DNA of 41,809 nt from an uncultured Woeseiaceae bacterium (GTDB taxonomy: Bacteria; Pseudomonadota; Gammaproteobacteria; Steroidobacterales; Woeseiaceae), in the NCBI GenBank assembly GCA_947259285.1, contig CAMYMR010000012.1, forward strand, positions 1-41,809, given 5' to 3'. This document shows, piece after piece, positions 1,743 to 39,241 of this stretch (its first letter is position 1; each line of letters opens with the position of its first letter). The translations under genes and the position numbers were made by a program. The notes below the pieces were generated by a model. The model did no database searches. It saw only the letters and a program-made list of their open reading frames with translations, and had not been told where the DNA came from.

Positions 1743-2504
1743 TTATCCGGATTCCAGCACCTTTCGTGCTTCCGGTGATGTCGGGAACTCACGCAACAAA
1801 CGATTCACGTAATCTGTCCTCGCGCGATCATCGCCGAGCTTTTCCTCTATCTGCGCGCCGAGATAAAGAACACCGGCCGTCGTCAGATTGCCAACCATGA
1901 AACGCTGCAGGAACGCCCTGGACGCAAGATAGTCTTGCTGCTGATACTTCAGAAGGCAGAGTTGCAGTAATGCGTCAGGAAAATTCTTCTTACGATCAAG
2001 CGCCTCGCGAAAGAAGCGCTCCGCCGCCGCCTGATCGGGTTTTTGCAGCATACAAATGCCGGCGTTCGTCAAGGTAACTTCGGCATTATCGTTTTCCGGG
2101 TGGTTGGCCGAGATGTCGAAGTGCTTTTCCGCTTTGCCAAAATCCCGCTGATTGCAGAGAAATACCGCGTAGCTGTTCTGCACCTCGAAGTTCCGCGGTT
2201 CCACGCGAACTGCTTGTTCATAGGCCTCTCGTGCGAGGCGTTCATTGTCCAACGCTTCGTAGGTGCGCCCGAGCGTCGAGTGCGCGATACCGTTTTTCGG
2301 GTCCAGTTCAATCGACAGCAGCAACCTGTCCCGTGCCAATTCATACTTGCCATTCTGGAAGTAGCGCGCGCCGAGCTGATAATTCAGGTCTGCCGCGTCA
2401 TCGTCGTCAGCTTCATTCGGTATATTTCCCGTAGTGGTCGAAATACAACCGGCCAACAGCAGAAGACTGATCGCTCCCGGAAGCCAAAGTTCGCTTATCT
2501 TCAT
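1743..2504 (-). CDS. pilF: Type IV pilus biogenesis/stability lipoprotein PilF (PilW)
   Basis: PilF (PilW in Neisseria) is an outer-membrane lipoprotein pilotin that helps the PilQ secretin assemble. The 253-residue product starts with a lipoprotein signal, MKISELWLPG then a hydrophobic stretch, ending in the lipobox LLLAGC, followed by an acidic linker and tetratricopeptide repeats over the rest, for example ARYFQNGKYELARDRLLLSI and NGIAHSTLGRTYEALDNE. The start is at 2504 because it gives the signal peptide and forms an ATGA overlap with the rlmN stop (2501-2503); the longer in-frame reading lies inside rlmN. The rlmN-pilF-rodZ order is conserved in gammaproteobacteria. No pilus structural genes are in the window. 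Confidence 0.9.
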   Translation of the reverse strand: MKISELWLPGAISLLLLAGCISTTTGNIPNEADDDDAADLNYQLGARYFQNGKYELARDRLLLSIELDPKNGIAHSTLGRTYEALDNERLAREAYEQAVRVEPRNFEVQNSYAVFLCNQRDFGKAEKHFDISANHPENDNAEVTLTNAGICMLQKPDQAAAERFFREALDRKKNFPDALLQLCLLKYQQQDYLASRAFLQRFMVGNLTTAGVLYLGAQIEEKLGDDRARTDYVNRLLREFPTSPEARKVLESG

Positions 2505-3637
2505 ACCGATGCCACCCTGGTTTTCGCCTTGCCTGACGTCTTGTCTGAAATGCTCTTCTTGCCGAGCGGAATCCTTACACGGTCGCTCACTCTGCCGGCA
2601 AGCTGCCCGCACGCCGCGTCGATATCATCCCCGCGGGTCTTGCGTGTCGTCGCAACGAGACCGCGCTGTCGGAGGCGATCCTGAAAATATCGAATCGTAT
2701 CCGCCGATGACCGCTTGAAGCGCGTACCCGGAAAGGGATTGAATGGAATCAGGTTTACCTTTGCCGGCCTGCCATTCAACAGGTCTACAAGTTGGTCGGC
2801 GTGCGCCAGCGAATCGTTTACGCCGCGCAACATCACGTACTCGAACGTGATGAATCGATTGGCATGTTTCGCTGCATAGTCCCAGCAGGCGTCCAGCAAC
2901 GTCGAGATAGGGTGCAACTTGTTAACAGGGACAAGTTCGTTGCGAAGATCATCGTTGGGGGCATGCAGCGATACCGCGAGCGACACGTTGCACGCGTCGC
3001 CGAGTTTTTCTATCAGCGGTACTATGCCTGAGGTACTCAAGGTGACACGGCGACGCGACAAGCCGTACGCCAGGTCGGAGACAAGCAGCTCCAGAACCGG
3101 AACGACGTTTCGATAATTTGCCAGCGGTTCGCCCATGCCCATAAAGACCACGTTAGTCACGGCACTGTCGCCAGTGTCGCGTCGTGGCAGTTCACGGACC
3201 GCATGCCAGACCTGGCCAACGATCTCGCCGCTACTCAGGTTTCTGTTAAAGCCCTGCGCCCCTGTTGCGCAAAACGCGCAGTCGAGGGCGCATCCTACCT
3301 GCGATGAGATACAGAGCGTGCCCCGGCCAGACTCCGGAATGAACACCGTCTCGATCGCCTGGCCCTGGCCGCTGGCAAACAGCCACTTGACCGTGCCGTC
3401 GCTGGAGTCGTGTCGAGACTGAACGTCGGGCAACGTGATCGCCGCCTCCGCGTTGAGCCATTCGCGGGTCGCTTTGGAGAGGTCCGTCATGTCATCGAAG
3501 CAGGTAATGCCGCGCCGGTAAATCCAATGCAACACCTGCCGCGCGCGAAACGGTTTTTCGCCGCGCGCAACGAAATACTGCTCGAGTTCATCTGGCGATA
3601 ATCCAAGCAGGTTCGTTTTTGTTTCGATCGAGGACAT
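2501..3637 (-). CDS. rlmN: 23S rRNA/tRNA adenine C2-methyltransferase RlmN
   Basis: RlmN is a radical SAM enzyme that methylates C2 of A2503 in 23S rRNA and A37 in a set of tRNAs by a ping-pong mechanism. The 378-residue protein has an N-terminal accessory domain, the radical SAM cluster motif CALDCAFC, the family motif FMGMGEPLANY, and near the C-terminus GDDIDAACGQL, which holds the conserved cysteine of the second catalytic step. Length is normal. It follows ndk by 14 bases and overlaps pilF by four, so the genes are almost certainly one transcript. The basic tail after GQLAGR (KSISDKTSGKAKTRVASV) is slightly longer than usual. Confidence 0.96.
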   Translation of the reverse strand: MSSIETKTNLLGLSPDELEQYFVARGEKPFRARQVLHWIYRRGITCFDDMTDLSKATREWLNAEAAITLPDVQSRHDSSDGTVKWLFASGQGQAIETVFIPESGRGTLCISSQVGCALDCAFCATGAQGFNRNLSSGEIVGQVWHAVRELPRRDTGDSAVTNVVFMGMGEPLANYRNVVPVLELLVSDLAYGLSRRRVTLSTSGIVPLIEKLGDACNVSLAVSLHAPNDDLRNELVPVNKLHPISTLLDACWDYAAKHANRFITFEYVMLRGVNDSLAHADQLVDLLNGRPAKVNLIPFNPFPGTRFKRSSADTIRYFQDRLRQRGLVATTRKTRGDDIDAACGQLAGRVSDRVRIPLGKKSISDKTSGKAKTRVASV

Positions 3638-3651
3638 GACCGTGAAACCGC

Positions 3652-4083
3652 TTAGCGGGTCCTCGGGCAGATGCCGTCGTCACCGAAGAAATACGCGATC
3701 TCGACTGCAGCCGTCTCAGCCGCGTCCGATCCGTGCACAACGTTTTCTTCGATGCTTGCCGCAAAGTCGGCCCGAATCGTGCCGGGGTCCGCGTCGGCCG
3801 GATTGGTCGCCCCCATGATTTCGCGATTCCTGGCGATTGCATTTTCGCCACTGAGCGCCTGCACTATCACGGGACCCGAAGTCATATAGCTCACCAGGTC
3901 GTTGAAAAAAGGGCGCTCCTTGTGGACGGCGTAAAATCCCTCTGCCTGGTCCTTCGTCAAATGCATCATGCGTGCAGCGACGATTTCCAGCCCAGCTTTC
4001 TCGAAGCGGCTGTAGATCTCTCCGATCAGGTTCTTCTGCACGCCATCGGGCTTGATGATGGACAGCGTCTGTTCAACGGCCAT
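3652..4083 (-). CDS. ndk: Nucleoside diphosphate kinase
   Basis: Ndk moves the gamma phosphate between nucleoside di- and triphosphates through a phosphohistidine. The 143-residue product matches the family throughout: N-terminal [10 protein letters not shown], the substrate region [18 protein letters not shown], and the active-site histidine in ENVVHGSDA. Length is typical. In Pseudomonas ndk follows iscX at the end of the full ISC operon; here it follows iscA after 98 bases, so five ISC genes usually lying in between are gone. A short hairpin at 4127-4145 (arms ACCCGA/TCGGGT) lies in that gap, without a U-run. Confidence 0.97.
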
Positions 4084-4181
4084 GTGTTGCTTCCTTTATT
4101 GCTGTTTGGAAAGAGTAGTGGTGAGTACCCGATGATTTCTCGGGTGCTTAGATGCCAACCGTTAATAGTACTACGCCGTTT

Positions 4182-4505
4182 TCAGACGTTGAAGCTTTCG
4201 CCGCAGCCACATTCGCCGGTGATATTTGGATTCCTGAAGCTAAACGCCTCGTTAAGGCCATTCTTGACGAAGTCCACTTCAGTTCCGTCGATCAACCGCA
4301 GCGCCTCAGGGTCCACGACGACTCTTATGCCTTTGTCCTCGAAAACGACGTCAGACTCGTCGATATCGTCGGCATAATTGATGACGTAGGAGTAACCCGA
4401 GCAGCCAGTCTGCGTCACTCCAAGCCGCAAGCCGATTCCCGTGCCACGCTTCTCGAGGTGCGTGCGGACGCGATCTGCGGCCGAATCCGTTAGCGAAATC
4501 GCCAT
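4182..4505 (-). CDS. iscA: A-type iron-sulfur carrier IscA
   Basis: A-type carriers receive or bind Fe-S clusters or iron and hand clusters to apo-enzymes. The 107-residue protein keeps all three ligand cysteines in the usual places: TGCSGYSY and the C-terminal CGCG of GECGCGESF. Length and sequence are ordinary, unlike its upstream neighbour, the altered IscU-like protein, whose stop lies 22 bases before this start. ErpA or SufA are alternatives, but the position next to iscS and the iscU-like gene favours IscA. Its intact ligands suggest it still works, perhaps supplied from another scaffold such as SUF elsewhere in the genome. Confidence 0.93.
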
Positions 4506-4902: not shown

Positions 4903-6062
4903 GTCGTGACCTCCGGTGCCAGACTGCGCAGACGCGCCACCGCTTCACCGTAACGCCGTGCCGCGAATTCAACATCCTCTCGCCGGGTTGGCCGGCCAAA
5001 GCTGAAGCGAATCGCGCTCTGCGCGAGCAAATCACTGCGACCCAGCGCCCGCAATACATAAGACGGCTCCTGGCTCAGCGCGTTGCAGGCCGAGCCGGTC
5101 GCAACGCAGATCGGCTCGAGCTCAAGCAACAGGCTCTCCCCATCGACGTTATCGACCGAGACGCTAAGAATACCCGGGAAGCCCGCATCGAGATCACCGT
5201 TGACGAGCACGCCGTCGACTTCATCAATACCTGCCCATAGCGCGTGGCGCAGGTCCGTCAGGTGGTCCAGGTCGGCGTCGATGCGGGACGACGCAATTTC
5301 TGCGGCGAGACCGAGCCCGGCGATAAGATCCGCCGGCAACGTGCCGGGTCGAATGCGCCGCTGCTGCCCACCTCCGAATAAGATCGGCTCAACGCGACAA
5401 CCTGGCCGATCCGCGATATAAAGCGCGCCGATGCCTTTCGGCCCGTAGAACTTGTGACCCGTCAGGGACAAGAGGTCGACGGGCAATTCCTGGAGATCGA
5501 TCGGGATTTTGCCCACCGCTTGCGCCGCGTCCACGTGGAACAGGATGTCACGCTCGCGGCAAATGGCGCCAATCGCGGGGATATCCTGCATCACGCCGGT
5601 CTCGTTATTGACGTACATGATCGAGACGAGCTGCGTATCCGCTCGCAGTGCCGCAGCAAAGTCGGCGGGGTCCAATAGCCCGTTGTCAGCAGGATTAAGC
5701 CAGGTGACCTCGAAGCCCTGCTTCTCGAGCATATGAAACACGTCGGTGACCGCCTTGTGCTCGGTGGGCATCGTCACCAGATGCTTACCGCGATGCGCGC
5801 GGTATCGTGCGCCCCCTGCGATAGCCAGGTTGTCCGATTCCGTCGCCCCCGAGGTCCAGATCAGCGTCTTCGGGTCAACATTCAACAATGCGGATAGCTG
5901 GCCTGCCGCATGCTCGATGCTCGCCCGGCTTTTCCGTCCCGCAGCGTGGTTGGACGAAGGATTCGCAAACCGCGTGCGATGGCAGTCGAGCAGCAGTTCG
6001 GCCACTCGTGGATCGACCGGCGTCGACGCCGCGTAGTCGAGATAGATCAGATCGTCTTTCAT
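4899..6062 (-). CDS. iscS: Cysteine desulfurase, IscS-like, short C-terminus
   Basis: This PLP enzyme takes sulfur from L-cysteine and carries it as a persulfide for Fe-S clusters and thio-modified tRNA. The 387-residue protein shows the family start YLDYAASTPVD, GATESDNLA, HVDAAQAVGK, the PLP lysine in SLTGHKFYGPKG, and the mobile-loop catalytic cysteine in ATGSACNALSQEPSYVLR. It ends at RLRSLAPEVTT, so the 17-18 residue tail that follows RLRxLSP in E. coli IscS, part of the IscU docking surface, is missing. This fits the altered IscU-like protein encoded next. It overlaps trmJ upstream (ATGA at 6059-6062) and the iscU-like gene downstream. No iscR regulator is present between trmJ and iscS. 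Confidence 0.93.
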   Translation of the reverse strand: MKDDLIYLDYAASTPVDPRVAELLLDCHRTRFANPSSNHAAGRKSRASIEHAAGQLSALLNVDPKTLIWTSGATESDNLAIAGGARYRAHRGKHLVTMPTEHKAVTDVFHMLEKQGFEVTWLNPADNGLLDPADFAAALRADTQLVSIMYVNNETGVMQDIPAIGAICRERDILFHVDAAQAVGKIPIDLQELPVDLLSLTGHKFYGPKGIGALYIADRPGCRVEPILFGGGQQRRIRPGTLPADLIAGLGLAAEIASSRIDADLDHLTDLRHALWAGIDEVDGVLVNGDLDAGFPGILSVSVDNVDGESLLLELEPICVATGSACNALSQEPSYVLRALGRSDLLAQSAIRFSFGRPTRREDVEFAARRYGEAVARLRSLAPEVTT

Positions 6063-6778
6063 TTGCCCGAGTGCCGCGTCTGATCGACGGCCGTGAGTAT
6101 GCCGCGAAGAATGTTGATCTCATTCTTATCGGGGCGAGCCCGAATGAACAATCGACGCAAACGACGCATCAGGTGTCTTGGATTCTGCGGGTCCAGGAAG
6201 CTAATGTCTGCGAGGACCCGCTCCAGGTGCTCGTAAAAGTGCTCCATCTCCTCGGCGGTCGCGGGAGGCGCCTCACTCTCGAACGCCGGGCCGGTATCCA
6301 CAAAACTCGCGACCCGCAGCTCGTAGGTCAGGACCTGGACCGCCATTGCGAGGTTCAGTGAGCTGAACGCCGGGTCCGTCGGGATTGTGAGCAAGGTATG
6401 ACAAAGATCGAGATCGTCATTGTGCAGCCCGGTCTTCTCGGGCCCAAACACCGCCGCTACCGTGCCGTTCTCGCCTTCACGAATCATGCGTTCGGCGCAG
6501 TCGCGCGGCCCCATGCTCGGCCAGCTGATTGTCCGCGAGCGAGCGCTCGCGCCAACGACGTAGACACAGTCCGCCAAAGCATCGGCAAGCGTGTCCACCA
6601 CGGTGGCATTGTCGAGGACATCAGTCGCTCCCGAGGCCCGCGCCGTCGCCTCCTCGTGAGGAAAGAATCGAGGATTGACCAGCGACAGATCGCCCAGACC
6701 CATATTCTTCATGGCCCGTGCAACCGCTCCTATGTTTCCCGGATGCGTGGTTCCGACCAGTACGATTCGTATCGACAT
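6059..6778 (-). CDS. trmJ: tRNA (cytidine/uridine-2'-O-)-methyltransferase TrmJ
   Basis: TrmJ is a SPOUT methyltransferase that methylates the ribose of position 32 in tRNA anticodon loops. The 239-residue product begins MSIRIVLVGTTHPGNIGAVA, where H/G/N of the SPOUT N-terminus are clear, and carries the SAM-binding knot elements AAVFGPEKTGL and IPTDPAFSSLNLAMAVQ. A C-terminal helical extension follows. The start is at 6778; a longer in-frame reading to 7021 would run into suhB and adds no family sequence. It is the first gene of the long minus-strand operon and is divergent from suhB, as in Pseudomonas. In many relatives cysE and iscR come next, but here iscS follows directly. Confidence 0.94.
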   Translation of the reverse strand: MSIRIVLVGTTHPGNIGAVARAMKNMGLGDLSLVNPRFFPHEEATARASGATDVLDNATVVDTLADALADCVYVVGASARSRTISWPSMGPRDCAERMIREGENGTVAAVFGPEKTGLHNDDLDLCHTLLTIPTDPAFSSLNLAMAVQVLTYELRVASFVDTGPAFESEAPPATAEEMEHFYEHLERVLADISFLDPQNPRHLMRRLRRLFIRARPDKNEINILRGILTAVDQTRHSGK

Positions 6779-6794
6779 GGTATCTGTTCGCCCC

Positions 6795-6826
6795 TTGACG
6801 ACAGGTTCCTGAAAGTCGGGTATTCT
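6795..6826 (+). promoter_or_regulatory. Possible sigma-70 promoter for suhB
   Basis: A TTGACG at 6795-6800 and a TATTCT at 6821-6826 lie in the 133-base divergent gap between trmJ and suhB. Both hexamers are close to consensus, but the 20-base spacer is longer than the usual 16-18, so only one of them may be in use. The suhB start lies about 85 bases downstream. Confidence 0.3.
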
Positions 6827-6911
6827 AGCGCCCCGGCGGCCTGCCCTGACAGAAATCGACATGCAGCGGCAACGGATCGGCCCAGTTCTTTGACACTGAC
6901 GGAATCGTTTC

Positions 6912-7721
6912 ATGCACGCACTACTCAACGTAGCGGTAATGGCGGCGCGGCGCGCTGGCGCCGTCTTGATCAGAAATCTCGTGAAGCTCGAGAAGCTCAA
7001 GGTGGAAAAGAAAGGTCGCAACGACTATGTCAGCGAGGCCGATCGCGCGGCCGAACGCGCGGTCATCGATGTCATCCAGAAGCACTATCCCGAGCACGCG
7101 ATCCTGGCCGAAGAGTCCGGCGCGACGGGTGAGGCCGATTCAGACACGGTCTGGATCATCGACCCGCTCGATGGCACAACCAACTATCTGCACGGCTTTC
7201 CGGTCTTCGCGGTCTCTATCGGCGTGCAGGTGAATGGCCGCATGTCGCATGGCGTCGTTTACGATCCATTGCGCCAGGAATTATTCACGGCGACACGCGG
7301 TGCCGGTGCGCAGCTCGACGAACACAAGATTCGCGTGAGCGGTCGGCAAGAGCTCGAGCACGCGCTGATTGGCACGGGTTTTCCCTTTCGTCAGGCCGAC
7401 AGCGCGCTGGAGCCTTACCTCGGCATGTTGGGCAAAGTCGTGAAACACACGGCCGGGGTGCGCCGACCCGGTGCTGCCGCCCTCGACCTCTGCTACGTCG
7501 CGGCAGGTCGGCTGGACGGGTTCTGGGAGACCGGGCTTGCGCCATGGGACCTCGCTGCCGGTTCGCTGATTATTCGCGAAGCTGGCGGTATCGTCAGCGG
7601 GCTGGACGGCTCGGAGGGCTTCATGGATGCGGGGCATATCCTCTGCGGGACACCGAAGATCTACAGTGGACTCGCGAAACTTTGCGCCGGCGAGATCAAA
7701 GCCATCCTGCGAAAACCGTAA
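6912..7721 (+). CDS. suhB: Inositol-1-monophosphatase family protein SuhB
   Basis: SuhB dephosphorylates inositol-1-phosphate and in E. coli also joins the rRNA antitermination complex. The 269-residue product has the metal-binding motifs of the family: LAEESG, WIIDPLDGTTNY and GLAPWDLAAGSLIIREAGG, with normal length. The ATG at 6912 gives the standard N-terminus MHALLNVAVMAARRAG. The queA-tgt-yajC-secD-secF-suhB-trmJ neighbourhood is the Pseudomonas order, but suhB is separated from secF here by a 509-base non-coding gap with repeats and is convergent with it. Confidence 0.96.
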   Translation: MHALLNVAVMAARRAGAVLIRNLVKLEKLKVEKKGRNDYVSEADRAAERAVIDVIQKHYPEHAILAEESGATGEADSDTVWIIDPLDGTTNYLHGFPVFAVSIGVQVNGRMSHGVVYDPLRQELFTATRGAGAQLDEHKIRVSGRQELEHALIGTGFPFRQADSALEPYLGMLGKVVKHTAGVRRPGAAALDLCYVAAGRLDGFWETGLAPWDLAAGSLIIREAGGIVSGLDGSEGFMDAGHILCGTPKIYSGLAKLCAGEIKAILRKP

Positions 7722-15309: not shown

Positions 15310-15909
15310 TCAGTAACTCCTCGCAACGGCGCCCTGCGGCTCCGCCCCGTTATCCTTCACCTCGAGCAGCGGTCGCAGTCGCAGGTACGCTCGCGATAAC
15401 TGCGACTTCGAAAAACTCTCGGTCTTACCCATCAGTCCCGCTATTTCTTTGTGCGTAAACCCCTCGACATCGTGTAACCAGACGACGGCACGGGCGACAT
15501 CCGGCAGACTCGCGAGCGCGGCATCGAGATCCATGGCATCGTCGGGATGTTGGGACACGCCGTGACCCGCAACGGCGCCCTCGGTAACGTCCTGCCAGTC
15601 GTCTGCGAGCGACTGACTGCGCTTGGTCCACGCCGAGCGCAGAAACATCAGGGCCTTGGTCACGGCGATACGTCGTATCCAGCTGCCTAAAGAGGCCTCG
15701 CCACGAAACCGGGCGATCGATCGCATTATCTCGATGAAAGTCTCTTGCACGAGGTCCTCGGCATGCGCGGGGACTTTTGTAAAGCGCAAGCATATCGAGT
15801 ACACCGGCGTCGCAAACGCGCGGTAGATTATTTCGTGCGCTCTCGGATCTCCGCGCGCCGCCCGCTTGATAATGCCCGGATCAATTTGAATGTCCGCGAA
15901 CTTGCTCAT
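15310..15909 (-). CDS. ECF-family RNA polymerase sigma factor
   Basis: The 199-residue product has sigma region 2 at about 30-100 (HAEDLVQETFIEIMRSIARF, the core-binding and -10 recognition part) and region 4 at about 130-190 (LDAALASLPDVARAVVWLHDVEGFTHKEIAGLMG, a helix-turn-helix for the -35). Regions 1 and 3 are absent, as in ECF sigmas. The start at 15909 is preferred; a longer frame to 16002 runs towards the divergent tRNA promoter without conserved residues. It heads a three-gene set, sigma, anti-sigma, PDZ protein, ahead of queA. The target regulon is not visible here. Confidence 0.9.
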   Translation of the reverse strand: MSKFADIQIDPGIIKRAARGDPRAHEIIYRAFATPVYSICLRFTKVPAHAEDLVQETFIEIMRSIARFRGEASLGSWIRRIAVTKALMFLRSAWTKRSQSLADDWQDVTEGAVAGHGVSQHPDDAMDLDAALASLPDVARAVVWLHDVEGFTHKEIAGLMGKTESFSKSQLSRAYLRLRPLLEVKDNGAEPQGAVARSY

Positions 15910-15944
15910 GTCTGTTTTGTTAGATGCATCGCGAGCGCAAAGGG

Positions 15945-15973
15945 TCGCACAGTCGCGCGTCCACGCATATACT
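15945..15973 (+). promoter_or_regulatory. Candidate promoter of tRNA-Leu with flanking inverted repeat
   Basis: TATACT at 15968-15973 has 17 bases to a weak -35, TCGCAC (15945-15950), and a GC-rich discriminator (GTGCGCC) typical of stable RNA promoters under stringent control. CGCACAG (15946-15952) and CTGTGCG (15972-15978) form an exact inverted repeat around it, operator-like. The divergent sigma gene starts at 15909, so the site could affect both directions. Confidence 0.45.
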
Positions 15974-16024
15974 GTGCGCCTTTCAGGCGGGCAAAGCACC
16001 ATTCAGGCTCGCCAGACACTGCAT

Positions 16025-16111
16025 GCCGGGATGGCGGAACTGGTAGACGCGCCGGATTCAAAATCCGGTTTCCGAGAGGAAGTGGGGGTTCGATTCCCCC
16101 TCCCGGCACCA
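16025..16111 (+). tRNA. tRNA-Leu, anticodon CAA
   Basis: The acceptor stem pairs GCCGGGA with TCCCGGC and is followed by an encoded CCA (16109-16111) after the A discriminator. The anticodon stem CCGGA/TCCGG encloses TTCAAAA, giving anticodon CAA at 16059-16061, which reads UUG. A long variable arm typical of class II leucine tRNA follows, then the T arm GGGGGTTCGATTCCCCC. Length is 87 bases including CCA. Confidence 0.97.
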
Positions 16112-16123
16112 CTCTGGATCACA

Positions 16124-16657
16124 ATGAAATACTGCTCAGCCTGTGGCTGTTCTGTCAGCCGCAGAACACCTGAAAATGATACGTACGAACGCTGGGTCTG
16201 CGACGACTGCGGCATAGTGCACTATCAGAACCCGCTGATTGTCGTGGGTTGCGTTGCCGAGCGAAACGGCAAAGTACTGCTCTGCAAACGCGCGATCGAG
16301 CCGCGCTACGGATACTGGACCGTTCCCGCAGGCTTTATGGAACTTGGCGAAACCATTGCCGGCGGCGCCGCTCGTGAAACACTCGAGGAAGCCTGCGCCA
16401 CGGTCGAGCTCGGTCACCTTTTTGCGTCAGTGGATGTCGTCGACGCCGGCCAGGTACACCTGTTTTTCTCCGGGAAGCTGGTGAGTGATTACGGCGTCGG
16501 CGAGGAAAGCCTCGAAGTCGCCTTATTCAGCGAGGATGAGATTCCCTGGGACGAGATCGCGTTTCAAAGCGGCAAGTTCGCACTCAAGAAGTATTTCGAA
16601 GACCGCGGCACCAACAAAGGCGTGCACATACACGAGCTTCGACGATCCAGGTCCTAG
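16124..16657 (+). CDS. Nudix hydrolase with N-terminal zinc ribbon
   Basis: The 177-residue product begins with two CxxC pairs, CSACGC and CDDC, forming a zinc ribbon, and then a Nudix domain. The Nudix box is GFMELGETIAGGAARETLEE, matching GX5EX7REUXEE, but the next residues are ACA rather than xGU, so the final Gly is replaced by Cys. Proteins of this type hydrolyse nucleoside diphosphate derivatives; the substrate cannot be read from sequence. The ATG at 16124 is only 12 bases after the tRNA CCA end, so the gene probably shares the tRNA transcript. No strong ribosome-binding site is seen. It converges on dsbC. Confidence 0.9.
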   Translation: MKYCSACGCSVSRRTPENDTYERWVCDDCGIVHYQNPLIVVGCVAERNGKVLLCKRAIEPRYGYWTVPAGFMELGETIAGGAARETLEEACATVELGHLFASVDVVDAGQVHLFFSGKLVSDYGVGEESLEVALFSEDEIPWDEIAFQSGKFALKKYFEDRGTNKGVHIHELRRSRS

Positions 16658-36129: not shown

Positions 36130-37086
36130 ATGAACAGGGACAGCACAATCAAGGTGGGACTTGCGCAAATCGCGCCGGTCTGGCTCAGCCGAGCGAAAAC
36201 GCTCGAAAAGATCGGTGCCTGGGTCGAATCGGCCGCGGATGAAGGCTGTCAGCTTGTCGTTTTCGGCGAGGCGCTTGTACCAGGTTACCCGTTCTGGGTC
36301 GAGCGGACCGATGGGGCGAGGTTCGAATCAGAACTGCAGAAATCACTCTACTCGCACTACGTGAGCCAGTCCGTTTGCATCGAAGACGGTGACCTGGATG
36401 ACATTTGCCGCGTCGCTCGCGAGAGGTCTGTCGCCGTCTACCTCGGCACCATAGAGCGAGCCTCTGACCGCGGTGGTCACAGCCTGTATTGCTCGATGGT
36501 TTACGTCGATCAGCGCGGAGTCATCGCCTCGGTGCATCGCAAGCTGATGCCTACCCACGAAGAACGGCTGGTCTGGGCGATCGGTGACGGCAATGGCCTG
36601 CGCACCCATGAACTCGGCCCGTTCACGGTCGGCGGGCTCAACTGCTGGGAGAACTGGCTGCCACTCGCGCGCGCATCCCTGTATTCCCAGGGCGAGGATC
36701 TGCACGTCGCGATATGGCCCGGAAACGACCGCAACACCCGGGATGTAACGCGGTTTATTGCGCGCGAAAGCCGCTCATTCGTCGTGTCGGTTTCCGGACT
36801 GATGCGTCGCCAGGACATACCCGCGTCGCTGCCGCATGCCGAATTGCTGATCGACTCTGCCGACGCCGTCATGGCTAACGGCGGCTCCTGCGTAGCGTCG
36901 CCGACGGGCGAATGGCTGCTGGAACCGGTGATAGACAGGGAATTGCTCCAGGTTGTTGAACTCGACCACCGCCATGTGCTCGAGGAACGTCAAAGTCTCG
37001 ACGTTGCAGGTCATTATTCTCGTCCCGACGTCACACGACTCATCGTCAATCGCAAGCGCCAGACCACGGCTGAATTCAAGGACTGA
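36130..37086 (+). CDS. Nitrilase-superfamily carbon-nitrogen hydrolase
   Basis: The 318-residue product has the three catalytic residues of the superfamily: Glu in FGEALVPGYPFW, Lys in HRKLMPTHEERL and Cys in GGLNCWENWLPLARASLY. The sequence around the Cys and the length resemble branch 1 nitrilases, so nitrile hydrolysis to an acid is possible, but a substrate cannot be given. The ATG at 36130 has GGA eight bases before it and is preferred to the in-frame TTG at 36118. It is divergent from the acyl-CoA synthetase. The CysK-glutaredoxin gene follows after 102 bases. Confidence 0.92.
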   Translation: MNRDSTIKVGLAQIAPVWLSRAKTLEKIGAWVESAADEGCQLVVFGEALVPGYPFWVERTDGARFESELQKSLYSHYVSQSVCIEDGDLDDICRVARERSVAVYLGTIERASDRGGHSLYCSMVYVDQRGVIASVHRKLMPTHEERLVWAIGDGNGLRTHELGPFTVGGLNCWENWLPLARASLYSQGEDLHVAIWPGNDRNTRDVTRFIARESRSFVVSVSGLMRRQDIPASLPHAELLIDSADAVMANGGSCVASPTGEWLLEPVIDRELLQVVELDHRHVLEERQSLDVAGHYSRPDVTRLIVNRKRQTTAEFKD

Positions 37087-37188: not shown

Positions 37189-38685
37189 ATGGCCAGACTG
37201 CACGCAAATATCCTCGAAACGATCGGCAATACGCCGATCGTCAAACTGAACGCGGTTGCCCCGCCGCGGGTCAACGTTTACGTCAAGATCGAAGCCTTCA
37301 ATCCCATGGGCTCCGTCAAAGACCGGCTGGCCCTGAGCGTTATTGAGCAGGCGGAGCGCGACGGCACGCTCAAGCCGGGACAGACCGTAATCGAGGCAAC
37401 CAGCGGAAATACCGGCATCGGGCTGGCAATGGTTTGCGCCCAGAAAGGCTATCCGCTGGTCGTGACCATGGCTGAAAATTTCAGCGTCGAGCGACGCAAG
37501 ATGATGCGCTTCCTTGGGGCGAAAGTCGTGCTGACGCCTGCCGCACTGAAGGGTAGCGGCATGCTGGCGAAAGCCGTCGAACTGGCGGAGGCACACGGCT
37601 GGTTCCTGGTCCGTCAGTTCGAGAACGAGGCGAATGCGGACGCCCACTCGCGCACTACTGCGCCAGAGATTCTCGAAGCCTTTGCCGACAGGGGGCTTGA
37701 CTGCTGGGTAACGGGTTTCGGCACCGGCGGCACGCTCAAAGGCGTCTCGCGGGTTCTCAAGGAAAAGAGCCCCGGCACGAGGATCGTCGTTTGTGAGCCG
37801 GACAATAGCCCGGTTCTGTCCAGCGGCATTCCTCAGGATCGCCTTGCGGACGGCACGCCCGCTGACAGCCATCCCTTGTTTCGACCTCACCTGATGCAGG
37901 GATGGAGCCCCGATTTCATTCCGCACCTTACCGAAGATGCCGTCAATGCCAATCTGATCGATGAGATTGTCGGCATCGCCGGCGATGATGCGCTGCGCAT
38001 GTGTCGTGCGCTGGCGCAAAAGGAAGGCATCTTCGTCGGTATTTCCGGCGGCGCGACCCTGGTCGGCGCGTTAGCCGTCGCGGAGAAAGCCGAACCAGGC
38101 GCCAATGTGCTTTGCATGCTGCCGGACACCGGGGAGCGCTATCTCAGTACCCCGCTTTTTGAAGACATTCCCGCCGACATGACGGACGAGGAACAGGACG
38201 TTTCCCGCTCGACGCCGAATTACCGATTTGACGCACCGCCACCGCCGCCACCGACATCAGCCGAGCCTGAAGAAGCGCCGACGTCGGCACCGGCCGAGGC
38301 ACTCGAGTTCCTCGATGCGACGACACATGACCCCGACAATCCTGTCGTGCTGTTCGCGCTCGAGTGGTGTGAATTTTGCTGGTCAGTACGCAAGATGTTC
38401 GCGCATTACGACATACCCTATCGGTCGATCGACCTCGACTCCGTCGCGTACCAGGAAGACAACAAAGGCGGCAACATACGCGCCGCCATACGTGAACGGA
38501 CGGGCCTCAAGACGATCCCTCAGATTTACATCGGGGGTCGGCACATCGGTGGCGCGACCGAGCTGTTCGACGCCGCCAAAGACGGCACCATGGAAAAACT
38601 GCTCAGCGAGAACAACGTGGATTGGAACAAGACGGCCGATCGCGACCCGTATTCATTCCTGCCGCAGTGGCTGCACGCACGCTAG
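37189..38685 (+). CDS. Cysteine synthase fused to a C-terminal glutaredoxin domain
   Basis: The 498-residue protein has two parts. Residues 1-345 are a CysK/CysM-type O-acetylserine sulfhydrylase: IGNTPIVKLN, the PLP lysine in GSVKDRLAL (Lys44), SGNTG near 74, TGFGTGGTLKGVSR, ISGGAT and MLPDTGERYLSTPLF. A proline-rich linker at about 350-375 (APPPPPPTSAEPEE) follows, then a glutaredoxin fold at 384-480 with active-site CEFC (Cys394/Cys397), the cis-proline loop TIPQIYIGG and GGATEL. The start at 37189 gives the usual CysK N-terminus. The frame runs through both parts with no break. A role in joining sulfide assimilation to thiol or glutathione chemistry is inferred. No O-acetylserine synthesis gene is nearby. 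Confidence 0.9.
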   Translation: MARLHANILETIGNTPIVKLNAVAPPRVNVYVKIEAFNPMGSVKDRLALSVIEQAERDGTLKPGQTVIEATSGNTGIGLAMVCAQKGYPLVVTMAENFSVERRKMMRFLGAKVVLTPAALKGSGMLAKAVELAEAHGWFLVRQFENEANADAHSRTTAPEILEAFADRGLDCWVTGFGTGGTLKGVSRVLKEKSPGTRIVVCEPDNSPVLSSGIPQDRLADGTPADSHPLFRPHLMQGWSPDFIPHLTEDAVNANLIDEIVGIAGDDALRMCRALAQKEGIFVGISGGATLVGALAVAEKAEPGANVLCMLPDTGERYLSTPLFEDIPADMTDEEQDVSRSTPNYRFDAPPPPPPTSAEPEEAPTSAPAEALEFLDATTHDPDNPVVLFALEWCEFCWSVRKMFAHYDIPYRSIDLDSVAYQEDNKGGNIRAAIRERTGLKTIPQIYIGGRHIGGATELFDAAKDGTMEKLLSENNVDWNKTADRDPYSFLPQWLHAR

Positions 38686-38698
38686 CAGCCCGCCGGAC

Positions 38699-39160
38699 TT
38701 ACTCGTCAAAAAAATACATCCCGAGGGTTTCGGCGACGCACGCCGGCTTGCGTGCGCCCTCCATCTCCAATCTGACTTCAGACGTAAGCAGCAGCGCGCC
38801 GGCACGCTTGCGCGCCTGCAACACCGTTGCCCGCGCACGCAGGCGGGACCCGACCGGCACGGGCGCATAAAATCGCACCTTGTTGAGGCCGAAGTTGATG
38901 GCACGCGCAAGATTCTCGACCTCGACGAAGTTCCCGGTCAACGCCGGAATCAGTGCCAGTGTCAGGTAGCCGTGCGAGATCGTCTTGCCGTCCGGCATTT
39001 CTCGCGCCGCTCGTTCGGTGTCCACGTGGATCCACTGATAGTCACCGGTCGCTTCGGCGAACTGATCGACGCGGTGCTGGTCGATAACGACCCAGTCGGA
39101 CAGCCCGACCTCTTCACCTTCAAGCTTCTTCGCGTCCTCTATGGACTTTATCAGTCGCAC
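38699..39160 (-). CDS. MaoC-like hotdog-fold dehydratase
   Basis: The 153-residue product matches MaoC-domain proteins: SDWVVIDQHRVDQFAEATGD, the catalytic IHVDTERA with Asp and His context, the SHGYLTLALIPALTG hydratase segment, and NFGLNKVRFYAPVPVGSRLR. These hydrate or dehydrate acyl-CoA or acyl-ACP. The start is likely the GTG at 39160 (VRLIKSIEDAKKLEGEE); the longer frame to 39226 has no family-like sequence. It is convergent with the fusion gene (13-base gap). The substrate is not visible. Confidence 0.88.
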   Translation of the reverse strand: MRLIKSIEDAKKLEGEEVGLSDWVVIDQHRVDQFAEATGDYQWIHVDTERAAREMPDGKTISHGYLTLALIPALTGNFVEVENLARAINFGLNKVRFYAPVPVGSRLRARATVLQARKRAGALLLTSEVRLEMEGARKPACVAETLGMYFFDE

Positions 39161-39241
39161 ACAGTGCCCCACCGCTGACCAGCAGCTAGTGATACCTGAT
39201 ACACCGGCAATCTGCAATGGCAACAAAGAGTAAGGCGTTGC

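Follow-up and report, generated by a model that had tools for sequence, protein, structure and literature searches.

Sulfur enters cell material chiefly through cysteine, and one route to cysteine runs through S-sulfocysteine. In Escherichia coli, Grx1-3, NrdH, Trx1 and Trx2 reduce S-sulfocysteine in vitro, while in cells the gain obtained from Grx1 or NrdH requires CysM, so that the two activities are known to work in series as separate proteins; E. coli lacking glutathione still makes cysteine via this route (PMC3528435, as given in the part of that report available to us). In the available part of the same study, the conversion of S-sulfocysteine into cysteine is ascribed to general-purpose glutaredoxins and thioredoxins (PMC3528435). 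A natural glutaredoxin fusion, NrdB-Grx of Facklamia, has a partner other than a cysteine synthase (PMC6187632, available part), and the nearest paper by wording deals with an oomycete PAPS reductase carrying a glutaredoxin motif (PMC2705460, available part). No account of a CysK-glutaredoxin fusion was found in open-access titles and abstract beginnings, among the matches listed (subscription journals lie mostly outside this scope), in agreement with a first-pass annotation which knew of no characterised enzyme of this layout; a Novosphingobium plasmid record labels the protein only as a "pyridoxal-phosphate dependent enzyme".

Here we describe such a fusion in a stretch of 41,809 nucleotides (the window) from an uncultured Woeseiaceae bacterium. 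Translation together with Pfam and NCBIfam located all the motifs where the first-pass annotation had placed them, namely K44 in NPMGSVKDR, SGNTG from residue 72, ISGGAT from 285, CEFC from 394 and TIPQIYIGG from 442. Pfam detected PALP over residues 9-313 (E 1.4e-71, above the cut-off) and Glutaredoxin (PF00462) over residues 386-453 (E 1.7e-13, 51 bits against a gathering score of 22.9). AlphaFold2, supplied with an alignment of 55 family members, predicted that both domains fold and that the linker between them is weakly defined (mean pLDDT 85.9, pTM 0.80; linker residues 356-362 below pLDDT 50). The earlier description of a CysK-type fold joined through a proline-rich linker to a complete glutaredoxin was thus confirmed by Pfam, NCBIfam and AlphaFold2. 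Comparison of the window with six near relatives gave dN values of 0.08-0.16 for the glutaredoxin, 0.10-0.15 for the CysK domain and 0.24-0.36 for the linker, the glutaredoxin being about as constrained as the CysK domain and the linker looser; dN alone was compared, since several pairs gave a saturated or undefined dS. Conservation also extends past the glutaredoxin match into the C-terminal tail (Table 1).

Table 1. Positions of the fusion gene, its parts and the associated features in the window and elsewhere in its genome
Feature	Position	Strand	Remarks
Nitrilase-superfamily gene	36130..37083	+	about 100 bases upstream of the fusion; solved relatives are nitrilases, NIT4 and cyanide dihydratases
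CysK-glutaredoxin fusion gene	37189..38685	+	498 residues, one open frame; ATG at 37189, stop at 38685
CysK-type PLP domain	37213..38160	+	residues 9-324, TIGR01139 match; K44, TSGNTG, GTGGT, ISGGAT, PDTGERYLST
CysK-domain stretch with insert of about 16 residues	37813..37887	+	residues 209-233; from alignment with the genome's ordinary CysK
Proline-rich linker	38230..38301	+	residues about 348-371
Glutaredoxin domain	38344..38604	+	residues 386-472; C394, C397 (Cys/Ser), P444, G454-G455
Conserved C-terminal tail	38644..38682	+	residues 486-498, DPYSFLPQWLHAR; family consensus DPYSxLPxWLHPR
MaoC-like gene (presumed)	38699..39226	-	convergent with the fusion
Winged-helix/TPR regulator and type I PLP decarboxylase	L170, G000:C54:7000-19000, 2414-4303 and 5570-6940		window's genome
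Dsr-type sulfur cluster	L171, G000:C109:4000-14000		window's genome

A search of genome contigs revealed at least 581 stretches encoding a relative of the fusion protein, the best 80 of which were analysed. Both domains lay in one uninterrupted frame in 79 of these 80 (identity 64-82%), so that homologues keeping the two domains together, which the first-pass annotation had named beforehand as a check, do exist and the stop or frameshift at the linker that it had also raised was absent from the same 79; an assembly artefact or linker frameshift is ruled out on this ground. The remaining copy (locus L044, 4989-6485) is split over two frames, either by decay or by an assembly error. Among the best 80, fused relatives occurred in Woeseiaceae, Marinobacterium, Marinobacter, Halomonadaceae, Lysobacter, Bauldia and Rhizobiaceae; others were found in metagenome-assembled genomes labelled Burkholderiales, Rhodocyclaceae, Rhodospirillales, Acidobacteriota, Myxococcota and Omnitrophota, though wrong binning may account for some of the last of these. 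The full fusion was present in 30 of 61 Woeseiaceae genomes (a hand count of profile matches, in which a genome with a partial match, G059, was scored as lacking the fusion, its omission changing little), in 7 of 274 genomes of an even class sample and in 5 of 398 of an even phylum sample, the window's genome being included in both. The CysK-glutaredoxin fusion is therefore patchy but widespread.

Unfused relatives of about 350 residues have the insert and the stretch following the PLP domain, without the glutaredoxin, and two genomes (G270 and G324) carry both kinds. A quick tree was built from 112 PLP domains, 87 of them fused, 23 unfused and two others, and on it a single change separates fused from unfused forms. 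Like all trees used here for the fusion, it carries SH-aLRT support only. Locus L110, first scored as unfused, was removed from the tree and the neighbour counts as its match reaches the contig end; L111, L125, L133 and L134 were removed as copies or near-copies, and E. coli CysM was left out for its long branch. An earlier quick tree, made before these removals and with the CysK rows included, needed four changes for the fused label; there the fused rows took in the genome's own CysK, a long row, and the branch with the unfused rows also held the fused L075 (support 81). A single change is thus the simplest count and not proof of a single event.

The first domain passed the NCBIfam cysK model (TIGR01139, 374.7 bits against a cut-off of 350.95), and K44, T71 to G76, G176, G178, T179, G181 and T182, aligned with E. 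coli CysK, were invariant in all 55 family members. The curated scores for CysM were not reached (TIGR01138, 240.2 against 394.2 bits; NF008735, 245.7 against 413), nor were those for cystathionine beta-synthase (240.2 against 510.25), SbnA (214 against 349.95) and cysteate synthase (191.2 against 600). The best 50 of 1851 Foldseek matches were all of the cysteine-synthase type and all fitted the first domain. The loop arginines of CysM have a role in thiosulfate use; those of the E. coli enzyme (IRRWPTEYLP) were unmatched in the aligned stretch of the fusion (MQGWSPDFIP). By these scores and motifs, the PLP domain is CysK-like and not CysM-like. The insert, some 16 residues that the genome's ordinary CysK lacks, lies before this QGW loop, and R232 within it, which was found in all 90 fused proteins (in an alignment that includes near-copies), might stand in for the CysM arginines. 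Up to residue 350 and under the cut-offs applied, the fused and unfused CysK domains differ consistently at only six positions (D205, R232, L235, M236, R346 and D348); three of them fall at the insert by the QGW loop and two immediately ahead of the linker, and a docked glutaredoxin could sit there.

In the second domain the nucleophilic cysteine C394 was conserved in 90 of 90 fused proteins, and C394, the TxP proline P444 and the GG motif (G454, G455) were each present in 80 of 80. The second cysteine is dispensable: C397 was Cys in 81 of the 90 and Ser in nine, with five changes on the non-redundant tree, so a C394-C397 disulfide is not essential, and the Ser forms point to monothiol chemistry. 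Glutaredoxins usually have a lysine or arginine three residues before the cysteine, for glutathione. At this position (391) the fusion has leucine in 86 of 90 proteins, with Thr, Phe, His and Tyr once each, and C394 is flanked by two glutamates (E392 in 88 of 90, E395 in 90 of 90); the use of glutathione is thus not assured.

Besides the fusion, the window's genome encodes a separate CysK of 317 residues, 58.6% identical to the first domain of the fusion and above the cysK cut-off (419 bits), which adjoins a LysR-type gene that by its sequence resembles CysB. A housekeeping role for the fusion was rejected because of this separate CysK beside a CysB-like gene, and to judge from the gene content the fusion is an accessory cysteine synthase. 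In several Woeseiaceae genomes matches to CysI and ordinary CysK lie close together on one contig (for example G010 C16 and G030 C40). A further protein of the window's genome has cystathionine beta-synthase as its best family (396 bits against a cut-off of 510), and four further glutaredoxin-type matches were found elsewhere in it. At 84.8% completeness, this genome gave no match for the assimilatory CysI and none above cut-off for CysE, and its best match for the ATPase of a sulfate/thiosulfate importer was below cut-off. Its two sulfite-reductase-type matches are, by context, DsrA and DsrB, accompanied by DsrEFH-, DsrC-, DsrM- and DsrK-like genes and a CysG-like gene, labels which we presume from sequence. 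With a Dsr-type cluster present and a CysI match absent, reduced or half-oxidised sulfur may be the source in this organism. The fusion did not correlate with CysI over the 61 family genomes (13 with both, 17 with the fusion only, eight with CysI only and 23 with neither; p 0.18), and the idea that it substitutes for a missing sulfite reductase was rejected on these counts.

No gene was found beside the fusion throughout the family, and no conserved operon, with genes at the loci called by codon score and not by a gene finder. In the window's lineage, 13 loci, that of the window among them, have a same-strand nitrilase gene upstream of the fusion, within 200 bases in eight. Over the 61 genomes, 15 had both nitrilase and fusion, 15 the fusion only, seven the nitrilase only and 24 neither (p 0.034; within genus p 0.41), so that a cyanide pathway through the nitrilase, with a weak co-occurrence that is not significant within genus, was demoted to a part of the amine and nitrogen explanation considered below. 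Downstream in the window's lineage, 23 loci (that of the window included) have a gene which, from sequence, we take to be MaoC-like, and 22 have a MoaE-like gene. In two Halomonas-type loci (L078 and L136) the next downstream gene, presumably of the carboxymuconolactone decarboxylase/AhpD type, is close to or overlaps the fusion. Elsewhere in the window, a presumably Nudix-like frame (15890-16657, plus strand) reads in its first part through a tRNA-Leu gene (16025-16111), and its true start is probably downstream.

Pfam was run on 98 neighbour frames of loci L022-L080, leaving out frames of more than 1900 bases, and the 25 commonest of 88 families were considered. Pyridoxal_deC was the commonest (nine frames), followed by Beta_elim_lyase (six, probably the same PLP proteins), adenosine deaminase (five) and an NAD-binding dehydrogenase (five); neither a thiosulfate gene nor a rhodanese or other persulfide gene was among these 25 families, and no thiosulfate gene was recognised beside a fusion. 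Counted by position, a same-strand group II PLP decarboxylase was found adjacent, on either side, in 12 of 75 fused and seven of 22 unfused loci with both flanks, 11 fused and one unfused loci with a flank below 1200 bases having been set aside. The adjacent decarboxylases belong to three subfamilies about 25-36% identical to one another, and adjacency changed state 11 times on the tree. With a profile built from these same decarboxylases, 13 fused loci gave a strong match (the near-copy L134 omitted), 12 of them adjacent and one, L033, 2.4 kb away. Two overlapping frames upstream of the fusion in Marinobacter changyiensis (L048, 4361-4919; near-copy L133, 858-1416), each holding part of a decarboxylase, look like a decaying gene. 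Several of the decarboxylase neighbours or their relatives have nearby a cyclase-domain protein or a TPR-repeat regulator of the winged-helix or BTAD type. The window has no decarboxylase adjacent to its fusion; elsewhere in its genome a type I decarboxylase (58.7% identical to that of locus L030) lies near a winged-helix/TPR regulator. A close decarboxylase orthologue was present in 14 of the 30 family genomes with the fusion against four of the 31 without (p 0.005), and within genus in 13 of 19 against three of eight (p 0.21). As this is not significant within genus, the co-occurrence perhaps reflects shared ancestry; the nitrilase followed the same pattern more weakly. The QCGR motif has an acid-binding role. 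It was lacking in all 21 decarboxylases, for which reason a route from cysteate to taurine is unlikely. No description of a pairing of fusion-type synthases with decarboxylases was found in the open-access literature.

Taken together, the fusion is conserved and widespread and probably produces a sulfur amino acid which it then releases. The simplest reason for joining the two domains would be that the product of the first has a sulfur-sulfur bond which the second opens, and we infer that the glutaredoxin acts on the product of the PLP domain. Our preferred explanation, held tentatively, is that the CysK domain makes a disulfide-type derivative of cysteine, most likely S-sulfocysteine from thiosulfate, and that the glutaredoxin reduces it to cysteine. 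The PLP domain would take an activated serine and exchange its acetyl (or phosphate) group for a sulfur nucleophile, most likely thiosulfate, giving a product with a sulfur-sulfur bond; C394 would then attack this bond, releasing cysteine (and sulfite), and glutathione or a similar thiol would restore the glutaredoxin through a monothiol cycle. In some members of the family the amino acid so released may pass to a PLP decarboxylase. Thiosulfate as donor and glutathione as reductant are our guesses. This explanation is supported by the CysK catalytic motifs and the score above the cysK equivalog cut-off, and by an invariant C394 with a replaceable C397, as in one-cysteine glutaredoxins (the aligned motif of 3fz9 is CSYS). 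The E. coli series outlined above gives a direct precedent for thiosulfate with S-sulfocysteine, and the Dsr-type cluster without a CysI match in the window's genome also speaks for it. That the fused and unfused CysK domains differ at so few positions would follow if the unfused enzyme had the same product and drew on the cell's pool of glutaredoxins. Against thiosulfate count the CysK-like score and the missing CysM arginines, together with the fact that fusion and CysI are not mutually exclusive, the sub-threshold importer match and the lack of a neighbouring thiosulfate gene; nor does thiosulfate assimilation alone account for the decarboxylase neighbours. A bolder version, which we consider decidedly unlikely, would place the whole of thiosulfate assimilation in one polypeptide, perhaps with tethered transfer, and in part of the Proteobacteria make it the entry to an undescribed amine pathway via one of the three distant subfamilies of PLP decarboxylase near winged-helix/TPR regulators.

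The first-pass annotation had suggested a persulfide donor or a redox switch. In the former case, which we regard as doubtful yet a real possibility, the glutaredoxin would take sulfane sulfur from a glutathione or protein persulfide and free sulfide by the CysK site, yielding ordinary cysteine. An intact CysK site and a monothiol glutaredoxin fit this scheme, as do the Dsr-type genes of the window's genome and a gamma-glutamyltranspeptidase, an enzyme that splits glutathione, which adjoins the fusion in L040 (a Pfam match, placed by sequence) and has like genes near the fusion in three more Marinobacterium loci. The divergent neighbour in Marinobacterium rhizophilum (L068, 3703-4569) is a persulfide-dioxygenase-like protein of the metallo-beta-lactamase type, with 402 bits to the dioxygenase half of Blh (profile positions 141-423; the whole-protein cut-off of 625 was not reached) and a more distant resemblance to ETHE1 and BpPRF; it is followed by a gene which we take to encode a SulP-like transporter. 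This neighbour was seen at one locus only, and the common families of the neighbour frames hold no persulfide gene, so that of the two suggestions the persulfide donor stands as possible, on that one locus, whereas a C394-C397 disulfide switch is unlikely given the Ser forms of C397. A switch of the glutathionylation type is possible, and a glutaredoxin acting on the sulfur chemistry of the enzyme fits what is conserved. More broadly, the glutaredoxin might protect the CysK domain or client proteins by removing glutathione or other adducts, the synthase being an ordinary O-acetylserine sulfhydrylase. Monothiol glutaredoxins suit deglutathionylation and all 90 fused proteins have a cysteine at C83 of the CysK domain, but so do all 24 unfused relatives and the ordinary CysK of the genome, and the C397S forms do not suit a disulfide switch; we consider this role improbable.

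The decarboxylase neighbourhood bears on an unlikely further alternative, in which the CysK domain makes a beta-substituted alanine, such as beta-cyanoalanine, or cysteine, for conversion to an amine by the neighbouring PLP decarboxylase or for hydrolysis by the nitrilase, with the glutaredoxin maintaining a thiol co-product or the enzyme in reduced form. It draws on the recurrent adjacency in fused and unfused loci alike, across three subfamilies and 11 changes on the tree, on the rank of Pyridoxal_deC in the Pfam count, which is independent of the decarboxylase profile, on the module-type decarboxylase and regulator of the window's genome, located elsewhere, and on the upstream nitrilases; it is opposed by the 63 of 75 fused loci, and the window likewise, without an adjacent decarboxylase, by the loose nitrilase link and by the missing QCGR, which makes cysteate to taurine unlikely. 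That the domains work independently, their joining being of little function, we judge very improbable: the linker is long, loose and variable, but a single branch divides 87 non-redundant fused proteins from 23 unfused ones, the glutaredoxin is constrained like the synthase, and there are the six fusion-specific residues. Under the preferred explanation of product reduction, the conserved fusion would name a dedicated reductase for the S-sulfocysteine step, allow this step to be tested with a single purified protein and offer a way into sulfur use by marine sediment bacteria. The recurrent decarboxylase neighbours hint at an additional pathway.

Compared with known systems, the first domain is like CysK (TIGR01139; Staphylococcus aureus CysK 8srt, 46% identity by Foldseek) in fold and catalytic motifs, and the fusion differs from ordinary CysK in the insert before the QGW loop, the C-terminal glutaredoxin and its accessory status. 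By sequence and fold the best solved match of the PLP domain is O-ureido-L-serine synthase (3x43 and 3x44, which we take to be DcsD), which in the alignment has no counterpart of the insert and stops short of the glutaredoxin; inspection by eye revealed no cycloserine-type gene beside the window's fusion gene. The nearest solved relatives of the glutaredoxin domain, presumably for the most part plant or other eukaryotic proteins, include 3fz9, 5kqa and GrxC5 (3rhb), 5kqa and 3fz9 being presumably of plant origin. Here the fusion has WCEFC or WCEFS against the aligned WCSYS of 3fz9 and YCGYC of 5kqa, and leucine three residues before the cysteine against lysine in both. Plant APS reductase with its glutaredoxin-like domain is a further precedent for such joining, and HI0572 (1nm3, presumably a peroxiredoxin-Grx hybrid) and thioredoxin glutathione reductase, both matches of the domain, likewise join a glutaredoxin to another enzyme, their partners not being cysteine synthases. 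The closest counterpart in function is CysM of E. coli with the separate Grx1 or NrdH, which in the available part of that report carry out the same reaction series as proposed here (PMC3528435), and from which the fusion differs in that its PLP domain is CysK-like and without the CysM loop arginines.
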